From Ulva prolifera (lineage: Eukaryota > Chlorophyta > Ulvophyceae > Ulvales > Ulvaceae), in the NCBI GenBank assembly GCA_023078555.1, contig CM041196.1, forward strand, positions 4,340,001 through 4,404,000: a stretch of 64,000 bases of DNA, read 5' to 3'. A model generated the notes under the pieces. It did not search any database. It saw only the letters and a list, made by a program, of their open reading frames with translations, and was not told the origin of the DNA. The first letter of the stretch is position 1. Every line of letters begins with the position of its first letter. Position numbers and translations under genes: made by a program. Of the stretch, positions 10,164 through 51,039 are shown piece after piece.

Positions 10164-10225
10164 TGCAGTTGGTTCGGGTGAGATTCGGTTTCAGTGTTTG
10201 TTTTCTCCCGTTCACTCTTTTGTAA
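10164..10225 (+). mobile_element. 62-bp LINE 3' tail with 11-bp target duplication, copy A only
   Basis: The insert ends GTTTGTTTTCTCCCGTTCAC then TCTTTTGTAA, the 3' end of the LINE at 9415-9807. It is bracketed by ATCCGCTGAAG at 10153-10163 and 10226-10236. Copy B has one uninterrupted ATCCGCTGAAG near 24133-24143. This is a dead-on-arrival insertion that happened after the segmental duplication and shows that a source element was active then. Confidence 0.9.
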
Positions 10226-10236
10226 ATCCGCTGAAG

Positions 10237-11218: not shown

Positions 11219-14200
11219 ATGCGTCTGTTGGAGGGACGGTGTCGGCAGCCAGCGATGTTGCTACTGATCAACGTATATGTAATTTTGTTATTGTCATCTA
11301 TTGCAAGTGTGTCGGGCAATGCTTCGGCTACGCCGGAAGCAGTGGTGGTATCAAATCCGTCGCAATTCCAGAGGGCTGTGAGGCAGGGAGTGAACCATAT
11401 CGTCATCGCAGAGCATCTGGATATGACCAACACGCCAAGATTCTCGGAGACTACCATCATGGACGCGGGCATGATCGCTATCGTTCCTAATGATCAAAAC
11501 GAATACACGAAGAGCATCCGGGTAAGACGCTCCGCAACGCAGATGCAATGCTGTAATTTGTAATTCAACTCAACAGTATGCTTGCTGATAGCGATCCAAT
11601 CGATCTCGCCATGTTGGTCTTGCTTTTGGCATCGTGCAGCGTCCCTGCTCGCTCCCTGCGCGCAGCTGCGCCTTACCATGGGACGCTGCGGCTGCATTTG
11701 CCGGGAAAGCGTCGCCCGGCTGCAGAAATAATTGATTTGTATGTGTGGGATTACAGGGGAACTGCACGAGCTCTCCGTCCGACCTGAGTTTGGATCCTCC
11801 TCGGAATCCAGGCCAGTGTGTGATCACTGTTCGCGAGGACTTCATGGATGTGCTCCTCCAGAATTCTCAAGTATGGGTGTCCAACTTATATCTAACTCTC
11901 CCTGGCGTCGAGAAGAACCATACCACTCTCGTGGGCGTACATGGTGGTGACGTCTACCTGACTGACATGACCTTCGTCGCTGACGGAGACAAGGCCCGCG
12001 CGATCGACGTCAAAGAGAATCGCAGAGTTTTCGTCGCTCGTGCGTTTTTATGCTCTTACATCTGCGCCTCTTCATTGCCGCTGTCTCCACTTGTTGATGG
12101 TGCGATGATGTTTCCCGACATCAGCCACAAACACACGCCTCGCTTGCAGGCTCATACTTCTCTCAGTTCTCTAAAGACAAGGACGGCGTGATGCGCCTCG
12201 AGCCTGGCGCTCGCGCGACGCTCAGCGATGTCACGTTCCGGAAAAACACCGTTGCCACCGGCAAGCCTGACGCCGTGGCGTCCGGGCCCGTCATGGGCCT
12301 CTACGCCGGCCTCACCAGCGGCGCCTCCGCGGCGTGGTTCCACAACTGCAGCTTCGGCGAACATACGTCCGCCGTCGCGGGCGAGGTGTCCGTGGAGAAC
12401 AGCAACTGCCGCGTCTACTCCAACACGAAGCTGCCCACCGTCTGGGACCTCAACCTGCAGCGGGAGTTGAACGCGTGGCCGCTCGCGCCGGCTGATTCCG
12501 CCTCCTCAGAGAACGTCGATGTCTTCGCCGAGGTCGAGGCCGGCAACGACTTCCCGCGCCCCACGGACGAATTGTTCGTGCGCATCGTCACGGAGCAGGC
12601 GCAACGCACGCGCCTCCCCGCGCCGGATGTGCCGGCCCTCCCGGACGGCACCGAGTTCATCACCCGCGACCCCTACTCCGGCATCGAGGAGGACGACGGC
12701 TTCTGGACGGCACAGAACATCGGCTTGATTGTCGGCCTCGGTGGCGGCGCTCTGCTGCTTGCGATCGCGGCCCTGCTCGCCGCCTGGTGGTTCTGCTTCC
12801 GCAAAAACTCCGACATGGACAAGGTGTGCGCCCGCCACCTGTGGTCACCAACCGCCACTCCCCAGCTGCTATTTGAGAGGCCCATGCGTGAAATACAATC
12901 AGCCGCTGCCAGCCAGGATGTCCTGCCCTAGTCGCATTCTGCGATCACCGCCCAGAACACCCTGCTCCAACTGATATGCCGATACTGTGCTTATTCAGAC
13001 TCGATTCGTAGCACGGCCGGCCATAGTGATGCTCCTGTCTGTGAAGCTTGGTGATGGCAGTCGGCCTCGCCTGCGGCTCAGTGCTACTTGTCGTTGCTTT
13101 GCTGCTTGCAGCCTGGTGGTTCTGCTTCCGGAAGACGTCCGACAATACAAAGGCACTTCTACACCCAAGTCTGGTTGCGACCTTTCACCACCCCTCACAA
13201 TGATACATCAGCACTGCCTTCTCATTAACTGATGGCCGCTGCGCACTGGTTCCCCCCAACCCAAAGAGGCTCACGGCCGCCTCCGTGGTACAGCAGACAG
13301 ATGCCAAGAGTCTCGCACGAACCGGCTTCGACGCTGCGAAGGCCGTCCCGTCTATGCATGCCGACTGGCCTGTTCACAGTGTTGATCCGGTCAACTCTCT
13401 CCTGGCATCCACGCACTGGGTGACCGACGTCGACTTCATGCCAACAGAGGTTGATCTCAGCAACGGGCCACCAACGGCGTCCGCAGCGACAGGCAGCAAG
13501 CTGGACTACTTGCACACGCAACTGTCCAGCATCGGCGTAGAGGCCGTTGTGCTCCAGCGCTTCACCCTGCTTGGCCCTAACGACCGCCGCCAGGGCGGTG
13601 CGGCCCCTTGCTGCCACTGCTTGCTCTTGCTTTGCCGCGGCGGTTTTGCAGCTATCTTTCCTGTTGGGCGGTTACTGCCTGTCACCCCCATGAACGGCAG
13701 CGCATACACAGTCACCTGCAGCGGTGCTGTGCAGGCCAGGGCATCGTGGCGTTTGCGCGGGGCGTGCACGACGGCCTCGGCTACGCCCTCAAGTTTTTCG
13801 TCGACCGGCCCTCCTTCCTCGCGGAGCGCGCCATGTACCGCAGCGCCACCCTCGGCACCCTCCTGCCGCAGGTCCACGCCGAGTATGACCCTGAAGAGGA
13901 GCCGGCCGCGCTGGTAGACCGCACTGGCCGGCCGCTGCCACCATGCATCGTGATGGAGCGCGGGGAGGCCCTGCCGGACTGGTCCAAACGCGCGCGGCCG
14001 GACGTCTTCAACGCCGTCGCTGTGATCGCGCACGTCGCGACGCGGCTGCGCACCATGCATGACGGTGGCTACGTGCACCGTGACATCAAGCCGGAGAACC
14101 TGATGCTGCTGCCGCGGGCGAATCGGTGGACGGTGATCGACTTTGGCTGCGCGGCGCGCGCCGGGGAGGCAGCGCCGCTGTCGTACACGCTGGTGTATGC

Positions 14201-14779
14201 GCCGCCAGAGGTGGCGGCGGCGGTGGCGGCTGGGGCTCAGACGATTGTGGCGGACCCGGCAATGGACGCGTGGGCGCTGGGGGTGGTGGCGTTTGAGCTG
14301 CTGACAGGGCAGACTGCGTTCAACCTCATCACTGAAGGTCGCGAATCTGTGCGCCTCCGAGGCTGCACCATTGCTCCCTCGACTTGCTACTTCTGTGCTA
14401 GAGATGTAACTAAGCATCTGCACGACTGCTCACGGAAGTTGACCTTTATAGGAGCCGCCTGGCCATGCATTCGCATGTTCGGGCGCCAAGATGTGGCGAT
14501 CTGACCTGTCACAAGATGTTTCAATCATGCAATCAGGAACTGCAGCCACACACTGAAGGGTGTGTGCAGGTGCTGGGGAAGTTGCTGGGGCAGGAGGAGC
14601 TGCCGTGGGATGGGGACCTGACGGAGAAGAACCCTGCGGCGCGGCGGCGGCTGGGGCTGTTCCGGGAGCCGGTGCTGGCGCTGCTGCGGCGCGACCCCGC
14701 GGCCCGCGCCACGCTCGCTGACTTCTGCCGCACCACCAACACCGTCTTCTCCTCCCCCACCACCCTCGCGCCCACGTAG
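11219..14779 (+). CDS. Receptor-like protein kinase A (beta-helix-like ectodomain, one membrane span, active-type kinase)
   Basis: Predicted single-pass plasma-membrane receptor kinase of about 795 residues. Exons: 11219-11521, 11757-12039, 12150-12823, 13294-13597, 13735-14337 and 14559-14779; all phases agree. Residues 1-33 form a signal peptide with a hydrophobic core (MLLLINVYVILLLSSIASVS). The ectodomain to about residue 380 has short beta-strand/turn repeats (SQVWVSNLYL, GDVYLTDMTF, ARATLSDVTF) resembling a right-handed beta-helix (pectin-lyase-like) fold. A membrane span covers about 386-409, followed by basic FRKN. The kinase has a Gly-rich GGQG loop, ALKFF with the ATP-binding Lys, HRDIKPEN (Asp about 638), DFG (about 657-659) and APPE. 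The ligand is unknown. Exons 1-3 are almost identical to RLK-B whereas the cytoplasmic half is not. Tyr- versus Ser/Thr-specificity cannot be settled; HRDIKPEN favours Ser/Thr. Confidence 0.85.
13052..13147 (+). pseudogene. Relict second transmembrane exon in intron 3 of RLK-A
   Basis: The + strand reads VGLACGSVLLVVALLLAAWW then FCFRKTSDN, closely matching the real membrane exon end (IVGLGGGALLLAIAALLAAWW, FCFRKNSDMDK) at 12730-12823. The position of the real donor, AAG then GT, is AAAGGC here, so the canonical GT is lost, and the frame soon stops. It lies exactly where similarity between copies A and B ends. It looks like the leftover membrane exon of a resident RLK gene whose upstream exons were replaced. 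Confidence 0.75.
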
Positions 14780-15001
14780 CCACCACCTTTCCCCCTGCTG
14801 TCCCCTGCCCCATCCCCACACACGACAGGTTCGACTGATGCTAGCGCGGCTACTGCGCACAGTTGTGGCCAAAGCACCGGCTGTGTGCGGACGTGGGCAT
14901 GGCTGTGAATTCCAGCTGCGCATGTTTTTTGCCTATTTTGCTCTGGTTTAACTTTCTTGAGAAGGAAGCCATGTGCGCAGCAGCACCCATGCTGTGCATT
15001 T
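14780..15001. other. 3' flank of RLK-A
   Basis: Probable 3' UTR and spacer. It is C-rich and then T-rich, and nothing else is recognised. Confidence 0.4.
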
Positions 15002-17325: not shown

Positions 17326-18674
17326 ACGCATGTGGCAGTTCACATCGTCAGGCGCGTGGCTTCATGGCCGATGGGGATCGTGCGTTGTCAGAAACCTGAA
17401 GCATCTCCGTGTCGCTTGTGTGTTGTGTGAGCACTCTGCAGGGTACTGCGGCACTTTACATGCTGCAGCTGCACAGGGGTGTGTGCGCGCACAGTGCCCG
17501 CATTTCCAGGTTGTGCCGCAGCAGCCAGAAGGAGGATCGTATGCATGTCTGTCATGCAAGTCAACATAGCAAACATGGGAGCATGGGCTCGGAGGCGCCG
17601 ATCATGTGAAAGCATTGCGTCCAAGAGCAGCTCTCTGCCTGGGCTTTCATGCTGGACTGCAGATGACGCCAGGATGTGTGAATCTACTGTTTCACCTGGC
17701 TGAAACCGTAGCCACAGTGCAGTTTGTTATTATACTGTACCTACTTCATAGGCCTACTTGAACAATCCACATAAAGCCGGTTCTGCGTTTTGCTGAGAGA
17801 AGGTTGGAATGCACATTCCCAGCAGACATGGTCATCAGAATGCTACCGATAACAGCAGTGTCCTTGGTACAAGAATCCCAAGTTTACGTCAGGCAGCACC
17901 ACATGTCAGAAGCAGAGAGTTCGGCAGTCGGGCCTCATGCAATCCGCAAGCACCTCAGAGCGCTCCAAAAAGCGCTGGGAACGTGTAGAGGCTCTTTGGA
18001 ACGCCTCCGAACTGCCACTGTATCACTTGGTAGCGCAATTGACCGTCCGAACTCTCGACATCATCAGGCGCTGCGACTTTAGTTGTGCACGACCGATTTA
18101 AGCGGGTGCACTAGCCACATGGTAATTTCTCGCGCTCGTCGATGACGCCCAACGCTGCACAGAGCAACACTGCGCCCATGTAGACGACGTGGACATATGT
18201 TGCAGGCACACCGAGCAGGTGAGACGCCAAGCCCCACACTTATACTTCTCGCGAGCCTGTTGCAGCAGCACTTTCCTCGTTCCGGCATTGTGTCTCTGCG
18301 GCGGAAAGCAGAAGGAGAAGTCCGATGCAATGGCAGCAGTGGAACCCACGAAGTGATACGCACAATCAGATTTGTGCCGAAGAGACATCCTGAGCCCGTC
18401 TGCGCACTACCAGGGCGAGTCTTGCTGCAACAGAGCTGTTGAGACGACTCAGTTCCGTGACCTCCGGCGTGACCCTTGATTCCGGCGGAGAATGACCGAC
18501 AATACACGGAAAGCCGAGAATGGCCTCCAGGCTGCCCGCGTGGTGTGCTGTCTACGCTTCAGGCTGCTGTGGCTGGGATCATGGGCCTCAAACCTAGTGG
18601 ATGCATGACGCCACAACGACACCGCAGTTGCAGCCAACAATCTCACCACGGCAACGGCTCGTCATTCTGTGCAG

Positions 18675-21586
18675 GCTATCGTTGGAGCCGGGGCTGCTGG
18701 TCTCGTGGCAGCGCGCGAGTTCAGAAGGGCAGGGCATGCGGTGCAAGTATTCGAGCAGCAGAGCGACATCGGTGGCGTGTGGGTGCCGGATGATGGCGAA
18801 CTCGCCGGGCCTGGTCCAGAGGGAGTCAAGGTCCACACCAGCATGTACGATAGCTTGCGAGTGAACCTCCCAAGGGAGCTCATGAGCTTTTCGGACTTCC
18901 CGTTTGTGCCGGAGTTCATGCAGGTACTTCCCCATGCAGGTGCCCCTGAATAAACATGTTCAAATGGCTGATCAATGAGTTTGACGCTGTACCCGGCTGC
19001 AAGGCCCCCGGCAGCAGCAGGCAACATGCCATTTGTGAACAGTGCTGCATGAGATTGCACATGCAATCGGTCATTGCTGTCTCTGTCTTCTTGATACATG
19101 CTCCTGTTGAACGTGTGGCCTTGCTGTTGCACCTGCCAACACCAGTCTCAGCTCTGACCAGTCCCAGCGCCACCATAGCTATACAAACTCCAGGTTGAAT
19201 CGCTTGCCATGGGGGGTTTGTCATCGGGGCTTGTCATCTCGCGTGAGCAAGGGCTGCGGTACGATGCGGGCCTGGAGGATGCGATCCTGCCGGGCAGAGG
19301 TGTGGACGCGGTCGTACTGTGATCGTGCGTGTGGTGCTGTTGGTTCGGATGAGATTCTTTAAATTTGTGATATTTGTACAGAAGACGTCTTCGCTCGTTC
19401 ACTCTGTGTCATACAGCTCCTAGCTATAGAATACGTATTCTGTTCCGTCATACAAATAATTCATGAAGCTGCGATACAATATGTGGTGTAGAAATGACGT
19501 GTAGATATACATTTCATGGTACTTCTGTAAAGTGTTAGGCTGTGCGGTGCACAATCACATATGTGTGTTTCAGGCCCGAGTTTAGCCCCGGAGTTGGCAG
19601 CCTAGCAACCTGGTTGTTTACAAAAGAGTCAACGGAAGAAGACAGATACCAAAACCGAAACGTAGCAGCCTTGTGATTTGGGTGCACGTGCGATATGTGT
19701 ATACCGCTATCGGGGCTGCTGACAGCCTGCTGTGCCCCTTTTCACGGGAGCCACAAGTTACAAAACTCCGACGGGCGCTTTCTCGCCCCGAGAGGAATAG
19801 TGTATTCGTGATTGTATGTGTGTGTTGACCCTGCTGGGCAGAGGTGTAGGTGCGGTTGTAGTGTGATTGTGAGTATGTTGCTGTTGTTTCGGATGACATT
19901 TTCCCGTGGTGTCTGTCTGCCCCCGTCTGCTCTTTTGTAGTAGTACCCAGGTGGAATTGCAGCCAGCTATAACCCAGGCTCTTGCATAGGGGCGGTCAGT
20001 GGACGCCAGGCGATTCCCCCACCACACGGAGGTGCGCCAGTACCTCGAGGCGTTCGCGGACCGCTACGGGCTTCGGGACGCGGTGCACCTCAACACGCGG
20101 GTGACTCGCGTCGCGCCCACGCCACCGTCGGATGGTGGCGGCACGATATGGCAGGTCGACACGGTGTCTGCGAGCAGAGGGACTGCAGCACAGGGCGCGC
20201 CCGAGCTCGGTGCTGCGGAGACCCGGGAGTATGATGCTGTGGTGATCTGCAACGGCCACTACACAGTTCCACGGATGCCGGACATCGAGGGGCTCGACAG
20301 CTTCCCGGGGAGGGTGGAGCACAGCCACATGTACAGGCGGCCAGAGGTGTACTCCGGGCAGCGGGTGTTGATTGTCGGCGCCTTTGCAACAGGTGCGGCA
20401 CTCCAGCGCTTGACGGTGTGTCGCAATTGCATCAGACTAGGGAATATCTGTAATGTTGGGATGACGCTGGTCGGCAGCGCGCCAGGGCTGCTTGGTGACG
20501 TCGCCTGTGCTGTCTGTTTGCTTGTAAGGGGTGCTTCCCTTGCGTACGGGCTTATGGTTCATTCGACGTCGCTCCTTGCAGGTGAGGACCTAGCTTGGGA
20601 CATTGCACCCTTTGCCAAGTCTGTGACGATGAGCGCCACGAGCTGGATGCAGCCACACTACTCGGAGCAGAAGGAGCTCTTTGGAGTTGACAGCAACATG
20701 CTCAGGCGCCCGTGGGTGACCAAAATGAACTCAGATGGCTCCGTTGAATTTGAAGGCGGTGGACGGGAGGCAGGGATCGATGCCGTTCTCATCTGCACAG
20801 GTCAGTTGCCGCACCCCAGTTCATATCCCTCCGGCGTCTGCTCTGTAGACGAGAGCGGCTGACGTCTACATGCATGTAGAGCAGCACCATCGCAATCACA
20901 GCAGAGACACCTTGATTGCCATAGATCAGCGTGGCATCCACTGCGGCGAGCTGTCGGTGTGCTGCAGGGTACCAGTACACCTTCCCATTTCTTGAAGATG
21001 GGATTGTGGACGTTGTCGACTCGCATGTCCAGCCGCTGTACCAGCACCTCCTGCATCCCCGATACGGCGCGAGCCTCGCCTTCATCGGCCTGGGATACAA
21101 GAATGTGCCATTCCCGCAATGCGAGGTACAGGCCAAGTATGTTGCTGCGCTGCTCTCTGGACAGTCAGAGACCCCGTCACAAGAGGCCATGGAGGATTGG
21201 GTCCAGCGGGAGAGCGGGTGCGACTCTCGAGCTCGGAGCACGGCCTGAGATAGGACATGTCACCAGCTGCATGCATGCATTCAACCGGCCGTGGCCGTTT
21301 CTCAAGAGCAAAGAGCCTGCGCAGGTTGCAGAAGGAGAAGGGCATACCAGATCGTCACGTCCACTGCATGGCCTTGAGCCAGTTCCCATATAATGACGAA
21401 CTGGCTGCCAAATGCGGTGGCAGCAAGACACCAGCATGGCGGCTATCACTGGTGATGCATACAATGGAGCTGTGGGGGAAGTACTCAGCTATACAGTACC
21501 GAGATGAGTGGGAGGACGAGGAAGCCCTGTCCAACACATATGCGGCCTTTGAAGCTATTCGCAAGGCACAACAGGTAGACAGATAG
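18675..21586 (+). CDS. Flavin-containing monooxygenase, copy B (N-terminal exon not resolved)
   Basis: Tandem paralogue of the FMO at 1198-3597 with the same exon pattern: 18675-18923, 19990-20392, 20582-20800, 20968-21217 and 21325-21586. All exon lengths equal copy A. FAD motif AIVGAGAAGL, FMO signature FPGRVEHSHMY, NADPH motif VGAFATGEDLA and LICTGYQYTF are all present, and no stop or frame break interrupts the exons. Differences from copy A are scattered and mostly mild (for example Glu to Gly in DRYxLRD, Phe to Tyr in TREYDAV). The first donor is GTACTT after CAG, stronger than in copy A; the acceptor is CATAG rather than CACAG. Intron 1 is about 1.07 kb because of retrotransposon debris. 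Both copies could be functional. Confidence 0.88.
19222..19936 (+). mobile_element. Nested LINE debris in intron 1 of FMO-B
   Basis: The tract GGGCTGCGGTACGATGCGGG to GCAGAGGTGTGG at 19250-19306 matches the LINE frame end seen at 1790-1840. It is then interrupted by about 0.5 kb before the LINE 3' UTR resumes near 19835 and ends CTCTTTTGTAG at about 19932. The inserted part includes a reversed LINE tail near 19618-19665 (ACAAAAGAGTCAACGGAAGA). In copy A the corresponding LINE fragment is continuous, so this insertion is specific to copy B. Boundaries are approximate. Confidence 0.6.
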
Positions 21587-22805
21587 GTAGACACAGATAG
21601 ACGACAACAAACTATGGCGACGGAGTTACGTTGTCAAGACTTGATGAAAATATTAGTTGTGAATATATCAGCTAGAGTAACATATAATTGAGACTTTAAG
21701 TAAGTAATTGTTTGATATGGCAGCAAATATTGCATAGGTATAGCATGTGTTAGGTTCTGCACAAGGCTACCCCGAAATGGCCCTGCGGGTTCAGAAGCTT
21801 TTGCTGAATTGGAAGGAACCGCAGTGTCTCTACGCATGTTGCGAAACATCGCTCATTGGTTTCCCGCAGTGCTGTGCATCTTCCTGGCTGCATGATCAAT
21901 CCGGGTCAAGTGCCAAGGACATGCAACTGTGTACAAGAGTTGGCGACGGCCGAAGCGTTTGTCATCTGGGGACAGAAGATCTCATAATAGGCAGGATTTA
22001 TGGTCGTTCCTTTATGCTGGTTGATTGCTTGGTTCCTGCGTCCCTGTGACGTGTCAGCGCCGGTGAATTTAGCATGTGTAAGGCTGTCATGAAGCTCAAG
22101 GGGCACACACTGTACCAGCGCCCTAGCCAGGCACACCTGAAGAAGAATTTGCCTTTCGCTGCTATCTCTGTGACATGTTACTGATGCCTAAATAGTCCCC
22201 AAACTGCATAGAACCCGGACACTGGCCGAAGCCTGGAAATCTTGCATAACGGTCTCAACACACTGAGATGCTCATAGGAGATGCCCATGTCGTCCTCATC
22301 ACACTGAGGTTGTCTCCATGCAAGCGACGCTTCATCACTTCGTTCAGGTGCTAGCTCGGTGGCAGGTGGTAGTCGTGCCAATGGTAGTCGTAGCGGCCGC
22401 CCAACCGGGTGGTCTGCCCGTACATGTGCTGTAGTCCGGCTCATCGGCTGGTGAGTGTGTTGGTAGGCTGATGCTTGGGCACATCTGGTTGGTAGCAGTG
22501 TGTCGCTGTGTATGTGTGTGCTCTGCCATACAATGGCCCGGTCGCTTGTGATTCACACAGCAGCTTGTCATCAGAACATCAAGAGGGAGAGGATGCACTG
22601 CATCACCTGTGAAAAGCTAGCCGGCCGTCACACATGTGGCTCCAGGTAGCCCTGCAATTGCCCCGGGCAATGGGGCCCCATGTGTGAAGACTGCGAAAGC
22701 ACAGTGCTGTCAACAGCCCTGTCAGCACCCAGTGTCAGCAGTCTACAGTCATACAGCAGATATCACATTGTGGAAATCCTGTGATGTGGCCGCTATACCA
22801 CTGGA
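21587..22805. other. FMO-B 3' flank with empty CACTA site
   Basis: This corresponds to 3598-4687 joined directly to 8718 onwards in copy A. The single AGA at 22688-22690 is the pre-insertion target of the CACTA element. A short CCCGGGCAATGGGG stretch just before it is absent from copy A. No gene is supported. Confidence 0.6.
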
Positions 22806-23384
22806 TTGCCACACTCATTGGACCCCGGACAACTAACAGAGCAACGTCAGTGGGCACCAAATGCACCCACCCATGACACGGGGCAGCAGCACACCTTCCA
22901 GCTTGGCAGTGGCAGGTGCCCTCTCCACGTGTACGACGGGCACCCCAAGTGCTCCGCACCTTACTTGAGGTTTGCCCAGAGATTGGTTTTTGAGAAGCCG
23001 CCGATGGGGTTGATGTCCGCGCTGCTGCACACTCTGTCCAGCCCCCCCCCAGAGCTCATCCATGGTGCACATCCCCCCAGGAGCTCATCCACATTTGCAG
23101 AGCGTCTGCGGGAACCACCACGAGCGGCCCCACAGCTGCGCAGACAGATGTGCTATCACCATCTGCAGGCGTGCCTGAGCAGTTTTCAGAGCCTGGTTTC
23201 AGCAGATACTGCAGAGCCAGGTGCCTCCATGTCTGGATGCAGACGGTCATTTCTGCCAACGAAGGTCACATGTTCAGGTGCTGACAGATGTGAGCACAGA
23301 GGCACGGTCTCTATATGTTCTCTGATGGGCATCCAATCCTGCTCACATCAGAGGGAAGCATTTCCTGCTCTGGCTCAGTACTAG
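22806..23384 (+). CDS. Hypothetical open frame, 192 codons, copy B (doubtful)
   Basis: Identical in translation to 8836-9414. It has no recognised domain and its stop comes from the LINE target duplication. Probably not a real gene; recorded because it is uninterrupted in both copies. Confidence 0.2.
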   Translation: MPHSLDPGQLTEQRQWAPNAPTHDTGQQHTFQLGSGRCPLHVYDGHPKCSAPYLRFAQRLVFEKPPMGLMSALLHTLSSPPPELIHGAHPPRSSSTFAERLREPPRAAPQLRRQMCYHHLQACLSSFQSLVSADTAEPGASMSGCRRSFLPTKVTCSGADRCEHRGTVSICSLMGIQSCSHQREAFPALAQY

Positions 23385-23788
23385 CTTACAAAAGAGTGAA
23401 CGGGAGAAAACAAATACCGAAACCGAATCTCATCGACATCAGATCTGCATCAACATCAACCTACACTCACACACACACGAACACAACAACCGCACGCACA
23501 ACTCAGTCCGGCAGGATCGCGTCCTCCAGGCCCGCATCATACCGCAACCCCTGCTCCCGAGAGATGACAAGCCCAGACTTCCGATACATATCCGCATTGC
23601 CACGCTGCAATGACACCGACAACACCCGCAGCGCCCACTGGACAAATGCGCCTTTGGAGATGCGCCCACTGGCAGCGGCCACATCCCCCAACTGACCGAC
23701 AAACCTCACGGCAGCCTTGCCCATGAAGCCACATGATTCGACTGCAAACGGAACAAACCGGAACGCGGCATGGTGAGGCACGTCCCGC
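23385..23788 (-). mobile_element. 5'-truncated LINE, copy B
   Basis: Same insertion as 9415-9807, with the 11-bp CTCAGTACTAG duplication at 23374-23384 and 23789-23799. It is 11 bp longer because of a small local duplication (ATCGACATCAGATC against ATC) in the 3' UTR. It carries the same reverse-transcriptase C-terminal residues. Confidence 0.82.
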
Positions 23789-23799
23789 CTCAGTACTAG

Positions 23800-25109
23800 T
23801 GCTGTAGCCGTACTTCGCGAGCTTGTCAGCAGCATAGAGCCCGGAAGGTCATCGTGCAAATTGTAAGCAGCATGAAACCCAGCAGGATCTGACGGTGGCA
23901 AAGCCCGCCAATGGTTACGCGGTGAGAGGTGTGAGGGCCCTCAGGCGTGCCTCACACGGCAGTACGGCGAAGGTATCCTGTCGGAATCCCCGATCCTATC
24001 TACAATCACCTTGAGCCTCGCCGACACAAAAGTTGACTCTGATAGCTGATGGTCCACTCCATGGAAACCTGGCAGCGATCCAGGATTCCAACGCATCTCT
24101 GGCACTACGTGCGGTCCGCCAGTGACGGAACTCATCCGCTGAAGTTGCCAGACATTAGAGCTACCGCAGTCTGCACAGGATAGCCGACATGGCACAGATG
24201 CAGCTGAACCGTCGGTGGGAGCTTGCAGGAGCAGCGGGGAGGCGCCGACATGGACGTTGGACATTATCGTTTACAAACCTGTTCCCCACCCGCACGAGAC
24301 AGACCGACAGCCCGTACAAAACGCTCACCGCTGCTACCCGCGCGCTGGCGCACCTCGCGCCATGGCTATCTGAACGCAGTTGCTGCACACAATCGCCGAG
24401 ATGAACGGCCTGGGCTCAACGTGAGAGAGTTTCTGCTCGGAATACTGTCGATCTACACGTGTGCGCGAAGCCACAGCTTCGCCGCGCGATCGACACGAGG
24501 TGGACACGGATGCCAATTTGCTGTCGTTAGAAGCATTCACGCTGCGCATGGTGCCGCATGCTTGCTATCTCGTGCACCCGTGGCCGCGGCTGCAGAAAAT
24601 CTGTTCGAGGCGCGAACGTTGCCGCGGGCGCGTGTTGCAGCTGCGCAATCCTGCATGACTCAGTGGGGGAACGCCGTCGCGCAGACCGGCCAAGCACACA
24701 GGCATGCCAGCAATCATGACTCGAATAACACCTCTGGTTATTTCCATGCAGCCTCGCTTTGGCTCTGCGCATGTTGGAGATCGGTGTGAAGGTCTGCCGT
24801 GCCGACATGCGTCATGCATGTCGTCACCGTGAAGTTGCGGTACAAGCGCTGAACACAGCAGCAGCTCACCAGTCGCTGCAGACCGAAATATGATGGAAGT
24901 GTGATGTCACTGGCGACGTCTCGGCCACCGCGCTCACGTTTAGCTTTCGTTAAGGTCCTCGGCTGAGTGTTCAACACGCGCATCGTGTTCGTGCGCGCCT
25001 GGTAACTTGTAGCTTAGTGCACACAGCAATTCATCATAGATTTATTTGGTTGCTGTCGCTTGTGTGTGCCGATCAGAGCCGTGCCGCAGCGCATACCGCA
25101 AGGGACAGC
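23800..25109. other. Upstream region of RLK-B, no supported gene
   Basis: Shared with copy A (9819-11218) apart from the LINE tail and small indels such as CACGCTGGTG in copy A only. It should include the RLK-B promoter. No motif can be singled out. Confidence 0.4.
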
Positions 25110-28100
25110 ATGCGTATGTTGGAGGGACGGTGTCGGCAGCCAGCGATGTTGCTGCTGATCAACGTATACGTAATTTTGTTATTGTCATCTATTGCAAGTG
25201 TGTCGGGCAATGCGTCGGCTACGCCGGAAGCCGTGGTGGTATCAAATCCGTCGCAATTCCAGAGGGCTGTGAGGCAGGGAGTGAACCATATCGTCATCGC
25301 AGAGCATCTGGATATGACCAACACGCCAAGATTCTCGGAGACTACCATCATGGACGCGGGCATGATCGCTATCGTTCCTAATGATCAAAACGAATACACG
25401 AAGAGCATCCGGGTAAGACGCTCCGCAACGCAGATGCAATGCTGTAATTTGTAATTGAATTCGACAGTGTGATTGCTGATAGCGATTGAATCGATCTCGC
25501 CATGTTGGTCTTGCTTTTGGCATCGTGCAGCGTCCCTGCTCGCTCCCTGCGCGCAGCTGCGCCTTACCATAGGACACTGCGGCTGCATTTGCCGGGAAAG
25601 CGTCGCCCGGCTGCAGAAATAATTGATTTGTATGTGTGGGATTACAGGGGAACTGCACGAGCTCTCCGTCCGACCTGAGTTTGGATCCTCCTCGGAATCC
25701 AGGCCAGTGTGTGATCACTGTTCGCGAGGACTTCATGGAGGTGCCCCTCCAGAATTCTCAAGTGTGGGTTTCCAACTTATATGTGACTCTCCCTGGCGTC
25801 GAGAAGAACCATACCACTCTCGTGGGCGTACATGGTGGTGACGTCTACCTGACTGACATGACCTTTGTCGCTGACGGAGACAAGGCCCGCGCAATCGACG
25901 TCAAAGAGAATCGCAGAGTTTTCGTCGCTCGTGCGTTTTTATGCTCTTACATCTGCGCCTCTGCATTGCCGCTGTCTCCACTTGTTGATGGCGCGATGAT
26001 GTTTCCCGACATCAGCCACAAACACACGCCTCGCTTGCAGGCTCATACTTCTCTCAGTTCTCCAAAGACAAGGACGGCGTGATGCGCCTCGAGCCTGGCG
26101 CTCGCGCGACGCTCAGCGATGTCACGTTCCGGAAAAACACCGTTGCCACCGGCAAGCCTGACGCCGTGGCGTCCGGGCCCGTCATGGGCCTCTACGCCGG
26201 CCTCACCAGCGGCGCCTCCGCGGCGTGGTTCCACAACTGCAGCTTCGGCGAACATACGTCCGCCGTCGCGGGCGAGGTGTCCGTGGAGAACAGCAACTGC
26301 CGCGTCTACTCCAACACGAAGCTGCCCACCGTCTGGGACCTCGACCTGCAGCGGGAGTTGAACGCGTGGCCGCTCGCGCCGGCTGATTCCGCCTCCTCGG
26401 AGAACGTCGATGTCTTCGCCGAGGTCGAGGCCGGCAACGACTTCCTGCGCCCCACGGACGAATTGTTCATGCGAATCGTCACGGAGCAGGCGCAACGCAC
26501 GCGCCTCCCCGCGCCAGACGTGCCGGCCCTCCCGGACGGCACCGAGTTTATCACCCGCGACCCCTACTCCGGCATCGAGGAGGACGACGGCTTCTGGACG
26601 GCACGGAACATCGGCTTGATTGTCGGCCTCGGCGGCGGCGCTCTGCTGCTCGCGATTGCGGCCCTGCTCGCCGCCTGGTGGTTCTGCTTCCGCAAAAACT
26701 CCGATGTGGACAAGGTATGCCCCCGGCACTTGTGGTCACGAGCCGCCACTCCCCAGCTGCCATTTGAGAGGCACCACACGTGAACTACAATCAGCCGCTG
26801 CCAGCCAGGATGTCCCGCCCTTGTCCCAGTCCGCGATTGTCTCCCAGAACACCCTGCTCCATTTGATACGCCGATCCTGTGCTAATTCAGACTCAATTTG
26901 TAGCGCGGTCTATCGTAATGATGCTTCTGTCTTTGGAGCTTGGTGATGGACGAGCGGCTGTTTGTGTCTGCATGCGTATCGGGCGGTCGGCCCCGCAGTC
27001 AGGCTTCCGTCATCGAAGCTTAATGCTGTGCGCTGTTGTCTGTTCCGCCTCCTCCTAATCCAGGAGCCCGATGGGTGGTGTGGAATACGTACACGCGAAA
27101 CACTCTCGTGCCCCGCCGCCGCCGCCGCCTGCACTGCCCGCCACGCGTACATGGATCTCCTGCATCCCTGTTGCTCGAGCTTTCCCCCGGACTCTCACGC
27201 CCTTCCTCCTCTGTGCAGCAGCAGACAGATGCCAAGAGCCTCGCGCGCACCGGCACCGAGGCCGAGAGCGCCGTGCCCGCGATGCACCACCCCAACTGGT
27301 CCGGCCCGCCCGGCGGGCTCGGCACGCCGTCACACACCGGCGGCAACTCCTCCCTGGACTCCGGCCTCCACCTCGTGCAGTACGGCCAACCCGGCGGCGC
27401 CGTTGCGACCCCATCCTCTCAGAGCTCCGCCCCGCACGGCCCCTACCACGGCGCACCCTACGGCGTCCCGGCAGGCGGCAACTACGGCGGGCCGAACTAC
27501 GTCGGCAGTTACGCGGGGTCGCAGTACGGCTCGCCGGCTCCACACGATGGCAGCCAGCCGGCAGCCAGCCAGGTCGGTGGCTACGGGGGCGCTGCGTACG
27601 GCGCCGCTTCGTACGCCGGCTCGGAGTACCGGCAGGAGGCCGCACGGCCGCGGGGGTATGGCATGCATGCGGACGGCGCGAGTGGCTCTGATGCTGGCAT
27701 GCACGCCGCGCCGCCGATGCATGGGTCGATCAACAACACGTCGGTGATGGGCTCGACGCAGCCAGGGGACGGGTACGCCGGCGTGCCACAGCCGGTGGCA
27801 GTCGGCAGCGGCAATGGGATGCCCGCGCCAAACGGCTCTGCAGGCGAGGAGTCCGACTCCATGCTTGGTGGGCCGCCGATGCTGCCGCCAGCCGGCGGGT
27901 CGCAGCCACGCCTCGACGCCGACGGCCGTGTGGTCTCGCCGCCGCCTCCGGCACCGGATGCGGCCGCAGGCGGTACGCCGCCACAGGCGGCGGCGCCTCC
28001 AGCGCCGTACGTTCACGCAGCGCCGGCCGCGCCGGAGGCGGCGAAGCTCGGCGTGCCGCACACGGCGAAGCTCGAGGGCGCCGCGCTGCCGCAGCCGGAG

Positions 28101-34110: not shown

Positions 34111-34142
<32 letters not shown>

Positions 34143-35603
34143 ATGCTGCACATGGACATCGTGCAGGAGCGGCTCGAGCGCGAGCACAACCTGTCGCTCA
34201 TCATGTCGGCGCCAACCGTCGTGTACCGCTGCACGACGACCAAGGGCGAGACGATCGAGGTGAGCAACCCCGCCGCGCTGCCCGACGCGAGCGTGCGCGA
34301 CAGCATCGCGGAGCCCTTCGTCAAGATGGAGATCATCACGCCCAGCGACTACAACGGCACGATCATGGACCTCTGCCAGGCCCGCCGCGGTGCGTGCTGC
34401 GTGCTGTGCTGCGTGCTGTGCTGCGTGCTGGGCGCCTGCTAGCCGGGGTGCTGTGTTCTGACACCGTGTGCATTTGCTGGGGTCTGGGGAGCCGCCGTCG
34501 CGTGCTGTGCATGCTGCGTGTGCCGTGGACCCAGGTGTGGCTTCAGCGGTGCGTTTCAGCGCTCCCATGGCGGAATCGCATTCCCTGCGCTCAAAAAGAC
34601 CAAAAACGATGTGTCAACAGACGAGGGTGCACCGAGGCGGATTGTGTGTGTGTGTGCGCTTGCAGGGGTGTACGTGAACATGCAGTTCCTGACGCCGGAG
34701 CGCACGACGCTGACGTATGAGATGCCGCTCGCGGAGGTCGTGACTGACTTCTTCGACGAGCTCAAGAGCCGCAGCAAGGGCTACGCGTCCATGGAGTACC
34801 AGCCACTGGAGTACCGCGTCGAGGACCTCGTGCGCCTCGACGTCAAGATCAACGGCGACCTCGCCGAGCCCCTCGCGACGATCTGCCACCGGTGCGTGGC
34901 CGCTGCGTGTGCTGTGCATGCTGTGCGCGCCGTGGTGCCGGGACCTGGCCTGGATGTGTGACGGCAGCTTGGAAGGCGTTGGAGCATTCCCGGGCTTACA
35001 TGTGTGAGATGGAGGGCAGGTGGGCGGCCGCGCAGAGCGCAGCCTGGGGCTGCCGAGGCGGCCGCATAGCAGCGTCAGCCTGTGTGCTGTGCTGGACTGA
35101 ATCGCAGCTCGCCGCCGTCAGTGTGTTATCAGCGCAGGCCGGGTCGGTGAAACAACAGAGTGCGCGCGTGTGCGGTGTATCAACCAGGGGGCCTGGACTC
35201 GGGACCGGGGGGGAGGGGCGCTGAGCGTCTCGGTTGATCGCTCTTGTCCACATGGCGGGTGCCCTCGCATGCACCATGCATGCATACTCGCAGAGGGGCG
35301 GTGTGGTGCAGGGACGCGGCGTATAAGGTCGGCTGCGGGCTGACAGCGAAGCTGAAGGAGCTCATCCCGCGGCAGCAGTTCAAGGTGCCGATCCAGGCGG
35401 CGATCGGCACGAAGGTCATCGCGAGCCAGTCGCTGCCGGCGATGCGCAAGGACGTGCTCGCGAAGTGCTACGGCGGCGACATCACGCGCAAGAAGAAGCT
35501 GCTCGCGAAGCAGGCGGAGGGCAAGAAGCGCATGAAGGCGATCGGCCGCGTCAACATCCCGCAGGAGGCCTTCATGGCCGTGCTCAAGGTCAACAAGGAC
35601 TAG
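31909..35603 (+). CDS. lepA: Plastid translation factor LepA / elongation factor 4, nuclear-encoded
   Basis: Ribosome-associated GTPase of the EF4/LepA family, which acts on stalled or mistranslocated organellar ribosomes. Exons: 31909-32106, 32177-32251, 32355-32536, 32717-33452, 34098-34389, 34666-34891 and 35312-35603, giving 666 residues in one frame. Residues 1 to about 45 are basic and Ser/Ala-rich ([20 protein letters not shown]...), like a plastid transit peptide. All G motifs are visible: AHIDHGKST (G1, about 79-87), RGITIK (G2), DTPGHVD (G3), NKID (G4) and SAKTG (G5). Domain II follows, then [20 protein letters not shown] and the LepA-specific C-terminal domain [20 protein letters not shown] to [14 protein letters not shown]. 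Plastid rather than mitochondrial location is inferred from the leader only. Confidence 0.95.
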
Positions 35604-36236
35604 GGCTGCCGCGGCGGCGTGGCTTGGTGCCGGGGGTGCTGAGCTTGCGTGGAGGTGGTCGCTGCACTGTGGGGTTGTGGCGGCTGGCTTGGGGGGGAGG
35701 CGCAAGTGCAGGCGAGGTGGGGCAGAGATTTTGGCCGGCCGATTGATGTGTGAGCTGGCGTGTGCTTGATCCAGTAACTTCCAATGTATGCGTTGTAACG
35801 GATGTGTGTCTCGAAAGTGGTGGATGAGCAATCGCTTGCTGAAACTTGTCGTAGCACCCTTCGACTTTGCAGGAGCAATAGGTGGATGCTCTTCATGATT
35901 TGATGCGCTGTGCAGCACAGCAGGGGCATCATGGAAGGTGCGTATCACCTAGTTGCGTCGTTCGCGAGTCGTTGCTTCGTGTGGCCTAGGGGCATCGGCT
36001 GAGTTCTGTAGCCGTTGGGGCTGGTTGGATTTCAGAGTGTGCGCAGGACAAGTGGCTGGATAAATCTGCCGCTGTTATTACATTTACGACAAGTCAGTGG
36101 GTGGAGTTTGTCCGAGCTTGGCTATGGTGTGTCATCGTCCTCGGTGATTTGAAACTTGAACAAGCGCATTGGGCGCTGCGACGTCCTCAACTGATGCGAC
36201 CCCCCTCCAGTCACCTCGACATCACATATTATCATC
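35604..36236. other. Spacer between LepA and the methyltransferase gene
   Basis: LepA 3' UTR (G-rich) and the upstream region of the next gene. No frame of interest. Confidence 0.4.
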
Positions 36237-41654: not shown

Positions 41655-42147
41655 GAACGCCGCGTCTTGACGTAGCGTCTTGACGCGGCGTTTGTGCCGT
41701 GCAGAAGGCATGCGTGGCCGCATTTAGTTCAACTGGATCAGTTGGTGTAGCCACCGCTTCTGAGCTCGGGCCGCAATGGCTTCACATCTTAAACGAACGT
41801 TCAAGATGTACGTGGTGCTGTCGGTATTGACGGCGGTGGTTGTTACACCCATAGCGCTTCGCTCCGCTGGCTGGGCCGTCGACGATTAGGCAGTGTGTAG
41901 TTATGAAAGATTTGGGTGAGGCTTCTTTATTGTGGGCATGCCCGAGGCGAGGGCGATGTTCGGTGCAGACGTGGCCACAGGGGTGATGACCTGCATTCGA
42001 AACACCTGTGCAGTGCTCACACAAACATCAGCATACTGGAAGCATCTGCATCCACTAGCGTTTAGAAATTAGGCCTGAGTTTTTGCCACAAGTTTGTGCG
42101 TTGTAGCCTCCTTCAGTTGCCAGCTATTTTAGAATAATTGTGCAACC
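41655..42147. other. Spacer between the methyltransferase and FKBP genes
   Basis: It contains short direct repeats just after the methyltransferase stop (CGTCTTGACG repeated near 41663-41687). The rest is 3' UTR and the FKBP 5' region. No gene is supported. Confidence 0.4.
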
Positions 42148-46318: not shown

Positions 46319-49300
46319 CTAGCTCATCGCCGACTGCTGCGACGCGGCGACCTCGCTGTCCATCTCCTGCGTGACCGTGCCCTTCGTTGCATGGTCAAAG
46401 AGGCTGTTCCAGCTCTGCAGCAGCTCGCTGCTGGTCGGGCGCTTGAGGGGGTCGCGCGAGAGGCAGCTCATCACGGTGCGCCGCAGCATGCGCAGCTCCG
46501 GGACGTTCTTCCGCCGGAAGTCCGCCGTCTCCCACGGCAGCGCCGCGCGGCCGACGATCTGGTCGCGCACGTCCTCTGAGTTGAGGGACCGCGGGAACAC
46601 GCGGCGGGCAGTGAGGAGCTCGTAGGAGATGATGCCGAGGGCCCACATGTCGGCTGCGGGGTCCGCGACCGTCGTCTTCTGGCCGCCCTCGACCGCGTAG
46701 ATGGACTCCGGCGGAGCGTAGAGCAGGCTGAAGGACAGCGGGCACGTCGTGCCTGCACACCAGCGTGCCTGTCACGGCACCATGCATGAGCCACACACTC
46801 GCTCCGCAGCAGAAACAGCCCTGGTACACCCGCTATCACCAGACTGAACTGCACAAGAGCTGCGGGCATTCAGGCAGTTCACTCGGGTGGTCGCATATGA
46901 AATTGACACGATCCCTTGATCCAAGAGCTGCTGGGCAAGGGGCGCGAGCCGCACCGATTTCGGCGGCGCAGCCAAAGTCGATGAGCGTCCAGGCGTGGTG
47001 CTTCGGCCGCCAGAGCACGTTGCCCGGCTTGAGGTCGCGGTGCGCGATGCCCGTCGTGTGCAGCTGCTGCAGGCGCGCGAGGATGTGGCACAGCACCGTC
47101 AGGATCGTCGGGAAGTCCGGCTCGATGCGCATCGCCCACTCGTCGAGGGACTCGCCCTTCTCCACAACGATGCAGGGGGGGAACACGTAGCCGGCGGCGT
47201 TGCAGATGGCGCCGTCGGCGTTGGGCACGATGTCCTTGACGGCCGGCATCATGCGGCGCAGGTCCTCGCGCGTGTACAGCGCCTCCTCGCGCTCAAACGC
47301 GACGCGGTTCAGGAAGAACTTGATCGCGAACTCGTCGTCGTCGTAGCGGCCGCGCGAAAACTGCACGATGCCCTGGCCGCCGATGCGTCGATGCACCTGC
47401 ACGCACGCCCGCGCCATGCTCCAGAACGTGCGGTCGAGGGGAATGCATCCCGGCGACGACTCCGTCTCAGCTGCGCATTGATGTCTCAGCTGCGCATTGA
47501 TGTCTCAGCTGCGCGTTGATGCGGTGGACCCAAAATCGGCCGATTCGTAACAGCTCAGTGGCTTCCGCAGCTGCCCCCTGATCATCTCGAATGCTACCAT
47601 TTAGGTGTTGTTCTGCGCCCGTGCGCACAGAGTCATCGCCGCGGATCCGGGTCGTTATGATGCATGCACACCATGGCTGTCCGCTGGCGCACAGCGGCGT
47701 GAACGGCGGTGGTCCTCGTGCAGGGAGATTGTTGATCTCTGGTACGCAGGCTACACACCGCCTTGCACCAGCTGCAACGTCTGAGGGAGCGGGGTGAGGA
47801 GGGGCGCGCACCTGGCCGTAGAGCTCAAAGCGGCCGAGGAAGAGGATGCGGTGGTCGTAGATCTCGTCGAGCGCCTCCTCGAGGCCCTCCCGGTCCATGA
47901 CCTGCCCCCGCGTCCCGCTCTGCCGCGTGCTCGAGCCGAGGCTGCCCATCGAGGGGTCCCCGCGCGCGTGCACGACCGCCGGCGACCCCCGTGCGCCGCC
48001 CATGCCGATATTCCCATGATGCGCGCTGCTGTACGCGCTGGGCGTCGTGTTCGTGAACAGCGTCGTGTCGTTGTCAATGAAGCGGTTCCCGGGCGCGCCC
48101 GCGCCGGAGGCTGAGTGGTAGAACGGCGGCGGGTCGCCGACGCGCTTGCTCGCGGGCCGCGGCAGACCGGGGCCGGCGCCGAGGAGGGCGTCGCCGCCGC
48201 TGCTGCCGGAGGGCATCGACATCATTGACGCCTGCTGCGGCGCCGGCTGCGAGTGCTGCGACGACGGCGGGATGCTGTAGCTGATGCCGAGGCCTGGCTT
48301 GGACGAGATCTGCACACCCCCTCGTGGCGCGTCACACGGCCATGTCACCCTTGCCCGGCACACCCTCAGGCACCAGAATCACCACAGTCCTCTGCGATGA
48401 GGCATTGGCTGTGTGTGGAAGGGCTGCAATCTGGTCTGCTGTAACCCAGGTACAACAATCTGTCATGTGGTCAGGTAGACATGCTTGATATATGGTTATG
48501 GCGTTCGCTGAGACCAGAGCTATCCAGCACCGACACGTAGCCGTCCGTCCAGAAGTGCATGCGCAACCTATGCAGCGGGAGCTGCGAATGGCCGGGAGAG
48601 ACACGCACCGCATTGCCTGCATACGCGTCCATAGCCGCCTTGTGCGCGCTGCTCTGCTCGCGTTTGCGCTTCCGATGGACGATGAAGACGGCGGCTGCAA
48701 TCGCGAGGAGGACGGCGAGAAGCCCCCCCACAATGCCCCCGATGGCCGCCGCCGACAGCCCGCCGTCGCCGCCGCCGTCCTCTGTCTCGTCCACCGGGAT
48801 CTGATCGATCTCCACCGGGGCGAGATTCGTCAGCCGGGCTTGCTCCTGCACGCATGCATGCATCCAGCGGTGACGTTCTGCGCTGCATCGCCACGCAGCG
48901 TGCTACGGTGGCCGCCTCCCTGCAGGCTGGGGCTGGCCCCCGCGGCAGCCACAGCGGTGCTGCGGCTTCTTGCCGAACAAGAGGCAACACGGCGCCCTAC
49001 AAAGGAATGCTGTGGCCGTGGCAGATGTAAAGTAAAGTAAATCTAAATTTACAGAGCCGTATCCTATTGGACATTGACAACTCCGAATTAACGGGACCAC
49101 ATATGCCGAAGGGGTAAACCACCTGGAAACCCCCCTCAGACGACCGTACGCAACTCACAGGGCCTCCTCCTGTGCTAAGCGAGGTGGTCACGTACGGCCG
49201 TTTCGATTCCCCAAAGCGCACGCAGAATCGAACCCACGACCTCCTGAAACGGAGGGGGTAGCTTTTAATCCGTCCTCAACCCATTGGACCCATTGGACAT

Positions 49301-51039
49301 GCTTATGGGAGCCCCAAGCCTTGCCATTTACTCAATGACTCGTTTTAATCGGGCTGAACTGGGATCGACACATCACCATCGGCGGGGGTGAGCCAGGAAC
49401 CGCTTTGCCTGCTACCCCACGCCATGTGGCTGTGCTGGCGCCGGACCGCAAGGGGTACAGACGTTGGGGCTGATGTGGGAGGAAGCTGCGCACGTCTGCG
49501 ATGTCTTGGAATGTGCTGAACTGTGCCACCAGGAAGCCACGCTTGTTCAGTTCCTCTGCGACGATGGGCTGGGGCACGATGAGGTTGCCCGTGGAGGCGT
49601 CAACGGACTTCTGGAAGGCCCGGTTGCTGTAGTGGCTGGCACGAGAGTCCGACTGCGAGAGTGGGTAGCCCTGCAGCACCACCACGACGGCTTGGTGCTG
49701 GGCAGAGCGCCAGACAGACACACGTCCCGGCAGCCGTTGCAGCGTTTGTGACAACATAGTGCAGGCACACACTGCATCGCCAAGTCCTTCGTGGGCACGC
49801 CGGCCACGTTGAGTACCTGCCGGGACGATGTCCAGGACAGGAAGGCACGCACCAGGTTGTCTTGATTGCTGGAGAATATGCACGACTGGAACCATGCGGC
49901 GGCCGGGATGTCGCCGGCGTTGCCGGACTGAAGGCCGACAGAGGAGCCGTGGTACTTCGCGGCGTTGGTGTTGAAGAGGCAGTCCTTGAAGCCGGCGCGG
50001 GAGCCCGCCTCGCACCGCACCGCCGCCGAGTCGTCCGCCTGGAACCCGACAAAGTGGGACGCTGCACCGCAGCCACAAGCTCATTCGAGAGCTCAGGCTC
50101 TGCTACCTCCCGATGAGTGTCACGCTGGATTCACGTGCTGTGCAGCAGATGTCAGGGTCCAGTGTGGGGGCCAGGGGAGCGCACTGCGGCTGTGGAGATG
50201 CTGCCCACGACCGACTTGCACCCCTCGGCAATTGTTTCGGTCTCCCCGGAGCACTGAGTTTGTCATCCAGACCGATCCAGTTTGAATGGAGATGAGCGGC
50301 AGGAGGGGATCTGAGGCTGCAGGGGCCTCCCGCTTCAACACTATGTACACGTCCGACAGCAGCAGTGTCGCTGCGTTTCGGATCTCAAGCAGCGGCGCTG
50401 CGACAGTGACGATGCACTGGCCGATTGCAGTCTGGGGTGGGTCGAGAGTAGTGCCGGCTGGGGAGGGGATTCCAGCACAGTCGCCCTGGATAGACAGCCC
50501 ACGTTGAGATACACTCCACTGCTATCATGTCATGGGTTCAGCAACACACGAACCTACCATACTAGGCTCAACCGCGCTGCATGATTCTAACACATTAACT
50601 GTTTCTCGGATCAGCCACTGACGCCACCCGAGCTCACGGACGCCAACGATCACAATGGCTAGAGGGGTCCTCCGTTGGCTACCATCGCTCAGCCAGGCTA
50701 TCGCATGCAAGAGGCCGTCAAGAGCAAAACTTTGACATCGCAGGAGTGAGGTCACGGTGCTACGTGACAACACCAGGCAACAGGGCGCACTCTGATGCTC
50801 TTGGTGGAGCTTTTGATGATCATGGTCGAGTTTGAAGACGAGATTGGGTCAGCTTCGAGCTCTGTCAGATCCATGTGGCTCTTTAGAATGATGTGACGTA
50901 CTCCGGCCTGTGCAGCTGCCTGGAAAGCCAGTTCTGTGCCCACATACTCGACATCCTTTTGCGCAAGAACCAAGTGCCGCGCGTTAGTCAGCAGCGCAAG
51001 CACGCCAGCAATAGCAAATTGACGCTTCCAGTGCACCAT
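46319..51039 (-). CDS. Receptor-like protein kinase C (beta-helix-like ectodomain, active-type kinase)
   Basis: Third member of the RLK family, on the minus strand, about 840 residues. Exons in coding order: 51039-50791, 50485 to about 50209, 50061-49853, 49670-49494, 48845-48609, 48309-47812, 47396-46955 and 46752-46319; phases agree. A signal peptide ends near VLA (residue 26). The first intron falls after TKSIR, exactly as in RLK-A and B (TKSIR). Exon 2 GDCAGIPSP...IGQCIVTVAA aligns with GNCTSSPSD...PGQCVITVRE of RLK-A. One membrane span lies at about 337-361, followed by HRKRKR. A Ser/Pro/Gly linker leads to YDHRILFLGRFELYG and the kinase: GGQG loop, AIKFF (Lys about 575), HRDLKPGN (Asp about 670), DFG (689-691), APPE and MWALGIISYELL. 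All catalytic residues are present. The exon 2 donor is ambiguous (50212 or 50209). Confidence 0.85.
49025..49123 (-). repeat. Dispersed repeat, copy 2 (in RLK-C intron)
   Basis: The minus strand reads GGTGGTTTACCCCTTCGGCA then TGGTCCCGTTAATTCGGAGT and ends TTTACTTTACTTT, matching 39717-39893. This copy lacks the internal inverted arm present in copy 1. It lies in the intron between RLK-C exons 4 and 5. Confidence 0.7.
49195..49300 (-). other. tRNA-like segment, possibly SINE-derived (weak)
   Basis: The minus strand contains GTGGGTTCGATTCTGCG, close to the B-box consensus of tRNA genes, preceded by a CCTCC-GTTTCA-GGAGG stem-loop. A regular cloverleaf does not form: the T-stem has a mismatch and the anticodon loop is too short. 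It may be a decayed tRNA-derived SINE or chance. Confidence 0.25.

Follow-up and report, generated by a model that had tools for sequence, protein, structure and literature searches.

Receptor-like kinases (RLKs) of land plants form large, tandemly duplicated families, some members of which lack catalytic residues. Here we describe a family from the green seaweed Ulva prolifera that resembles the land-plant RLK/Pelle proteins in its predicted architecture of signal peptide, ectodomain, one membrane span and cytosolic kinase, and in being large and tandemly duplicated, with some members lacking catalytic residues. Unlike them, it has no Pfam match to LRR, lectin, LysM, malectin, WAK or other ectodomains, and the solved relatives of its kinase (best 60 of 1424) are STE20, DAPK, titin and similar proteins. 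Three of its genes, RLK-A, RLK-B and RLK-C, lie in a 64,000-nucleotide stretch (GenBank assembly GCA_023078555.1, contig CM041196.1, positions 4,340,001 to 4,404,000, forward strand), which we call the window. They are part of a large family, with probable membrane receptor kinases numbering many dozens in the genome. In the relevant passage of a published table, Ulva mutabilis has one RLK and the other chlorophytes one to about four (PMC10868138, citing Dievart et al. 2020). In the same genus, we find 79 of 120 kinase places with a family head upstream, although the RLK definition behind that passage may be narrower. A survey of 350 genomes, as far as its text was available, treated any protein with one or two spans and a kinase as an RLK, and gave named ectodomains for almost up to 70% (PMC10834447).

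The three gene models were built by joining exons at GT-AG sites (Table 1). Each is a single uninterrupted frame from ATG to stop, all introns are GT-AG, and the order of parts is common to all: signal peptide, head, one membrane span, linker and kinase. Taking a mean of at least 1.6 over 19 residues as the threshold, RLK-A and RLK-B have an N-terminal hydrophobic stretch (residues 8-34) and a single internal span (383-414), and RLK-C has an internal span at 329-361 and an N-terminal stretch at 8-26 that is weak (1.65, barely above threshold). On hydropathy alone, therefore, all three carry a predicted signal peptide and a single span before the kinase. Intron 1 is in phase 0, directly after TKSIR, in all three genes, and intron 2 is in phase 1 in all three. 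A preliminary description of the window had proposed these gene positions, the ectodomain-span-kinase order and the shared first intron; the frames, the hydropathy profiles and matches to the kinase family PF00069 bear out the first two, and the common phase-0 position the third. The junction of RLK-C exons 3 and 4 (about 49853-49697) is uncertain, since several in-frame splicings are possible; the join adopted here omits a small exon, and an automatic aligner picked a different in-frame solution.

Table 1. Receptor kinase genes of the window, modelled parts of the RLK-A head, and segments shared between RLK-A and RLK-B.
Feature	Position	Strand	Remarks
RLK-A receptor kinase gene	11219-14779	+	6 exons, 795 aa, kinase motifs intact
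RLK-A exons	11219-11521, 11757-12039, 12150-12823, 13294-13597, 13735-14348, 14570-14779	+	
RLK-B gene	25110-30393	+	7 exons, 1087 aa; near-RLK-A head, long Ser/Gly/Pro linker, predicted pseudokinase
RLK-B exons	25110-25412, 25648-25930, 26041-26714, 27219-28375, 28646-28791, 29321-29641, 30014-30393	+	
RLK-C receptor kinase gene	51039-46319	-	8 exons, 837 aa, kinase motifs intact
RLK-C exons	51039-50791, 50485-50209, 50061-49853, 49697-49530, 48845-48609, 48309-47812, 47396-46955, 46752-46319	-	
RLK-A head exon 2	11757-12038	+	AlphaFold2 pLDDT 87.5, strands only; two invariant cysteines
RLK-A head exon 3, part preceding membrane span	12152-12700	+	AlphaFold2 pLDDT 85.6, mainly strands
Duplicated segment, RLK-A copy	8708-13057	+	98.98% over 1469 and 95.7% over 2834 alignment columns
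Duplicated segment, RLK-B copy with RLK-B head	22678-26949	+	
Leftover membrane-span exon in RLK-A intron 3	13060-13143	+	about 3 bases past duplicated segment end

The family extends far beyond the window. Six-frame searches of the genome that contains the window (88,887,114 bases on 44 contigs) returned 63 matching stretches for the RLK-A head and at least 145 for the RLK-C kinase at E ≤ 1e-5 (134 of 554 candidates scored). With two more head queries, the second a hand-written consensus, the matches numbered at least 149 and at least 150 (best 150 of 275 candidates each). Matches were merged at 2.5 kb, using all 145 kinase rows and, for the heads, 149 of 149 rows from the first further query, 55 of 150 from the consensus and 17 of 63 from RLK-A, the rows left out being judged by eye to duplicate places already entered. 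This produced at least 151 head places and at least 120 kinase places, the latter set by similarity alone. The counts tend to be low because only the best candidates were scored, and contig C23, which repeats part of C7, adds a few duplicate places. Several matches on C23 score the same as the C7 places at 0.62-0.64 Mb, and C23 is probably an unplaced duplicate or a second haplotype.

Heads and kinases are strongly linked across these places. Of the 151 head places, 81 are followed within 8 kb by a kinase on the same strand (median distance 4352 bases). On the opposite strand, a kinase lies downstream of three and upstream of one. Same-strand kinases also lie upstream of 27 head places, as tandem arrays would give. 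Seen from the kinases, a head lies upstream on the same strand at 79 of 120 places and on the opposite strand at one. The family of three members first proposed was therefore an underestimate, as 79 kinase places genome-wide carry a related head exon upstream, and the excess of same-strand over opposite-strand downstream kinases (81 versus 3) gives good support to head, span and kinase forming one gene. Within the window, no fourth member was accepted: with RLK-A, RLK-B and RLK-C masked, no head or kinase alignment scored above 60 with a purpose-written profile aligner.

The same gene organisation recurs among paralogues. We modelled 34 loci (L numbers) with a purpose-written spliced profile aligner, and 28 head models (15 + 13) passed the score thresholds. 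Their first intron is in phase 0 in 26 of 28, and a phase-1 intron follows in 22; of the remaining six models, the alignments of L030-L032 end before intron 2, and L016, L023 and L025 differ. Two cysteines and the first glycine of head exon 2 are invariant in all 25 aligned rows. A C-terminal stretch resembling a membrane span (mean of at least 2.3 over 19 residues) is present in seven of the ten best-scoring paralogue heads. At L008, L012 and L014, head exons were found with no family kinase in the few kilobases fetched downstream; they may encode secreted or receptor-like proteins that have no kinase, or the kinase may lie further away.

The head is likely to be a beta-solenoid and plausibly a right-handed beta-helix, judging from structural models. 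AlphaFold2 predicted the part of RLK-A exon 3 that precedes the span (183 residues, 15 alignment rows) with a predicted local distance difference test score (pLDDT) of 85.6 and a predicted template modelling score (pTM) of 0.81, the five models ranging from 54.6 to 85.6 in pLDDT. Exon 2 (94 residues, 25 rows) reached a pLDDT of 87.5 and a pTM of 0.76, with models from 80.3 to 87.5. Both pieces consist mainly of strands, the only helix of four or more residues lying near the end of exon 3. The exon 2 model has long strands at 37-48 and 64-75, whose starting points are separated by 27 residues, as is usual for the rungs of beta-helices. Among the 50 of 86 Foldseek matches listed for exon 2, the highest probabilities belong to inulin fructotransferase (9j4i, 0.63, template modelling score 0.45; 9j4l, 0.60) and the phage 9NA tailspike (3riq, 0.47), which are right-handed beta-helix proteins. 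A rung-like motif occurs 34 times in 20 heads, compared with a shuffled mean of 14.6 (standard deviation 3.8, largest 26), and six times in 17 kinases, compared with 4.3 (standard deviation 2.0). The motif gives weak support because it was chosen after the sequences had been read.

Database searches gave the head no name: no match to it rose above the cut-off in Pfam, NCBIfam or PDB sequences. Pfam gave no match at E ≤ 1 to the known ectodomain classes (LRR, lectin, LysM, malectin, WAK and DUF26) in RLK-A, RLK-B, RLK-C or 15 heads, in a listing from which the HMMER filters discard most matches above about 0.1. Four other Pfam families of no evident bearing appeared in the 15 heads, including DUF2917 in three (best E 0.0065). 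NCBIfam gave two weak, unrelated matches, and a PDB sequence search with the heads gave nothing at E up to 10. In viral contigs, 44 stretches fitted the head pattern, none of them a relative. The pherophorin family PF12499 had no match in the genome, which says little because the control genomes gave none either. In its mainly-beta exon models, the best-probability matches of exon 2 and sub-threshold matches to Beta_helix, the head resembles pectin-lyase-like beta-helix proteins; it differs from them in having no significant match in sequence or structure and in being fused to a span and a kinase. A head of this shape could instead be an adhesive or protein-binding beta-solenoid, acting for example in cell-cell contact within the thallus, and not the glycan sensor proposed below. 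Pectate_lyase_5, described as an adhesive domain, gave a sub-threshold match in one of the 15 heads (E 0.042), and Ulva is multicellular; we hold this alternative to be a serious one, if rather doubtful.

All three proteins match PF00069, with E-values of 1.8e-18, 8.7e-16 and 4.8e-24 and scores of 67.3, 58.5 and 85.6 bits for RLK-A, RLK-B and RLK-C respectively, against a curated cut-off of 31.7; only kinase families exceed their Pfam cut-offs, and PF00069 ranks first. RLK-A (ALKFF, HRDIKPEN and DFG) and RLK-C (AIKFF, HRDLKPGN and DFG) keep the beta-3 lysine and the aspartates of HRD and DFG, and are predicted from these intact motifs to be active kinases. RLK-B keeps the lysine (AIKFY) and reads YYAMKPSN in place of the HRD motif and DFA in place of DFG. 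It is a predicted pseudokinase because the HRD aspartate and DFG are lost. The kinase signature PPCIV(M/V)E(R/K)GE, initially attributed to all three proteins, is found in RLK-A and RLK-C; RLK-B reads PPAIVMKRGE.

Loss of catalytic residues recurs elsewhere in the family. Among 18 kinase models, HRD is kept in 14, and its aspartate is absent from RLK-B and L010 (YYAMKPSN), L007 (YYNMKPSD) and L017 (HRNLNPES); DFG has become DFA in RLK-B and L020, and DFS in L007. L009, which scored too low for this set, has ICGALKPSN with DFS. The pattern YYxMKPS was rejected as the mark of a large pseudokinase group: its 14 genome matches are three family genes (RLK-B, L007 and L010) and 11 copies of one repeated sequence, TACTACTGCATGAAACCGAG. 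These 20 bases lie at 11 places on six contigs outside the window, including C1:11981361, and are probably a repeat element. Of 24 stretches of viral contigs that fitted the kinase pattern, 14 encode kinases of weak similarity (31-48% identity).

The family might also be one of land-plant RLK/Pelle kinases with a diverged ectodomain, which we consider unlikely. The architecture is the same, from signal peptide through ectodomain and single span to kinase, and PF07714 exceeds its cut-off in all three proteins, but its scores (24, 37 and 32 bits) fall far below those of PF00069 (67, 59 and 86). Further, the best 60 of 1424 solved relatives of the RLK-C kinase, which comprise OSR1/SPAK (STE20-like), titin, DAPK, BRAF, TTK and others, include no named plant receptor kinase or IRAK. 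By these comparisons, the kinase does not appear to be of the RLK/Pelle type.

The window also preserves evidence of how such genes are rearranged. RLK-A and RLK-B share a duplicated segment whose identity drops away inside intron 3 of both genes. Since the segment ends there, the duplication took in the flank upstream, the head and the membrane span but left out the kinase. The two heads are 98% identical, with 28 differences over 1260 bases and 9 over 420 residues, and their nonsynonymous (dN 0.0095) and synonymous (dS 0.065) divergences give a dN/dS of 0.15, which suggests purifying selection after copying. Because the head was copied recently within this segment, RLK-A and RLK-B are not independent witnesses of it. 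In a tree of 21 heads, RLK-A and RLK-B are sisters (99/98), joined next by L001 (99/95); in a tree of 18 kinases, RLK-A groups with L001 (100/97) and RLK-B with L007 and L010 (99/98). RLK-A and L001 are 95% identical in their kinases and 71% in their heads. The head and kinase trees disagree, and heads and kinases have therefore recombined; the cluster is a mosaic.

Intron 3 of RLK-A contains a leftover membrane-span exon, 75% identical to the corresponding exon of L001 and 76% to that of RLK-B. We rejected it as proof that the RLK-B head was copied onto RLK-A, as the remnant is about equally like both. Compared with L001, the start of the RLK-B linker exon (27210-27314) is 92% identical and the RLK-A stretch 13229-13358 is 73% identical. 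Upstream of the head segment lie further duplicated blocks (1-4675 and 17509-22664; 95.9-97.8% identical); the copy at 19990-20859 resembles part of a flavin monooxygenase (PF00743, E 1.9e-16).

We interpret these genes, with a probability of about 0.72, as a large family of surface receptor kinases with a beta-strand head, a single span, a serine/threonine-type kinase and heads that recombine. The protein would go to the cell surface and cross the membrane once. Outside, the head of some 300-350 residues would consist of beta-strands stacked as rungs, probably in a right-handed beta-helix, and carries a pair of cysteines conserved in exon 2; inside, the serine/threonine-type kinase would sit on a variable linker rich in serine, glycine and proline. 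The head may bind a ligand outside the cell. Going by the class of fold, our best guess for that ligand is a polysaccharide of the wall or matrix, or a glycan of microbial origin. Ligand binding would bring receptors together, and the kinase would signal onward by phosphorylation. Members without catalytic residues, such as RLK-B, could act as co-receptors or decoys for the ligand of RLK-A. Tandem duplication and intron recombination, placing one head on different kinases, would diversify the repertoire. We speculate, at somewhat less than even odds, that green seaweeds have a repertoire of their own, evolved independently of land plants and comprising at least 100 genes for beta-helix-headed receptor kinases directed at wall or microbial glycans, in which moving heads makes new receptors, and live and dead kinases under the same head pair as signal and decoy or co-receptor.

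Several points weigh against this interpretation. The AlphaFold2 models cover two single-exon pieces of RLK-A, not the whole head, and neither exon has a Foldseek match below E 0.2. The four best matches of exon 2 by E-value (from 0.2) are to the luminal or extracellular domain of SV2, which has another fold, at probabilities of at most 0.08; exon 3 has no credible structural match in the PDB or among viral models; and Pfam Beta_helix is sub-threshold in two of 15 heads (best E 0.068). Of the beta-helix ectodomain suggested by the preliminary description, what stands after structure prediction and fold search on exons 2 and 3 is a pair of confident, mainly-beta models and a weak beta-helix likeness of exon 2, which exon 3 does not share. 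Three of the ten best-scoring paralogue models (L002, L008 and L010) lack the membrane-span stretch, and the 120 kinase places were assigned to one family through their likeness to RLK-C (E ≤ 1e-5) rather than from a tree. As to novelty, such genes may already sit unnamed in the 350-genome survey, among the RLKs to which it gave no named ectodomain (PMC10834447).

The remaining points against it would also fit a secreted beta-helix protein and a cytosolic kinase following it being separate neighbouring genes wrongly joined. For 70 of the 151 head places, no kinase was found within 8 kb downstream among the candidates scored, and some of these may be kinase-less; and L002 has its head on one strand and its kinase on the other. 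Separate genes would fit, too, the 27 heads with a same-strand kinase upstream. Nevertheless, the exons of RLK-A, RLK-B and RLK-C join without frame shift or stop, the span is in frame with the head, the join from the span exon to the linker is in phase 0, and downstream kinases are 27 times as frequent on the head's own strand as on the other, which makes separate genes improbable. Similarly improbable is that RLK-A and RLK-B are one gene assembled twice through an assembly or haplotype artefact: despite the high identity of the 2.8 kb and 1.5 kb segment blocks (95.7% and 99.0%) and a 687-base tandem repeat at 5378-6748 that is 100% identical, and so very recent or itself an assembly artefact, the loci differ past 13057/26949, their kinases are placed well apart by the kinase tree, and their coding differences are mostly silent.

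Other features of the window and genome were recorded in passing. The sequence GGTCGTGGGTTCGATTC, which we take to resemble a tRNA B box, lies inside an intron of RLK-C (49225-49241, minus strand) and also at 5972-5988 (minus strand) of L006; found once in the window and in one of 53 loci, it is possibly part of a short interspersed nuclear element. ARAGORN found no tRNA in the window. Frames at 32313-34958 match an elongation-factor-type GTPase (PF00009, PF03144 and PF00679), presumably BipA/LepA-like. The genome has 34 chlorophyll-binding matches, and the mature part of its plastocyanin first exon is identical at 48 of 48 residues to PDB 7pcy, presumably from Enteromorpha (= Ulva) prolifera, and less like 1iuz, presumably from Ulva pertusa.

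In the literature searched by title and abstract opening, with matches partly covered, we met no description of this combination of head and kinase. The terms 'Ulva' and 'pectin lyase' are absent from the main text, as available, of the 350-genome survey (PMC10834447), as are 'receptor kinase' and 'receptor-like' from the available text of the Ulva compressa genome paper (PMC9266709), and 'kinase' and 'receptor' from that of a review of the green-algal extracellular matrix (PMC10762512).

If our interpretation is correct, a large receptor system exists outside the streptophytes, in a green seaweed with 79 head-bearing kinase places. Ulva development depends on bacterial signals, and this dependence offers such receptors an obvious possible role. 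RLK-A and RLK-B would then represent a natural experiment, in which nearly the same head is carried by an intact kinase and by a predicted dead one.

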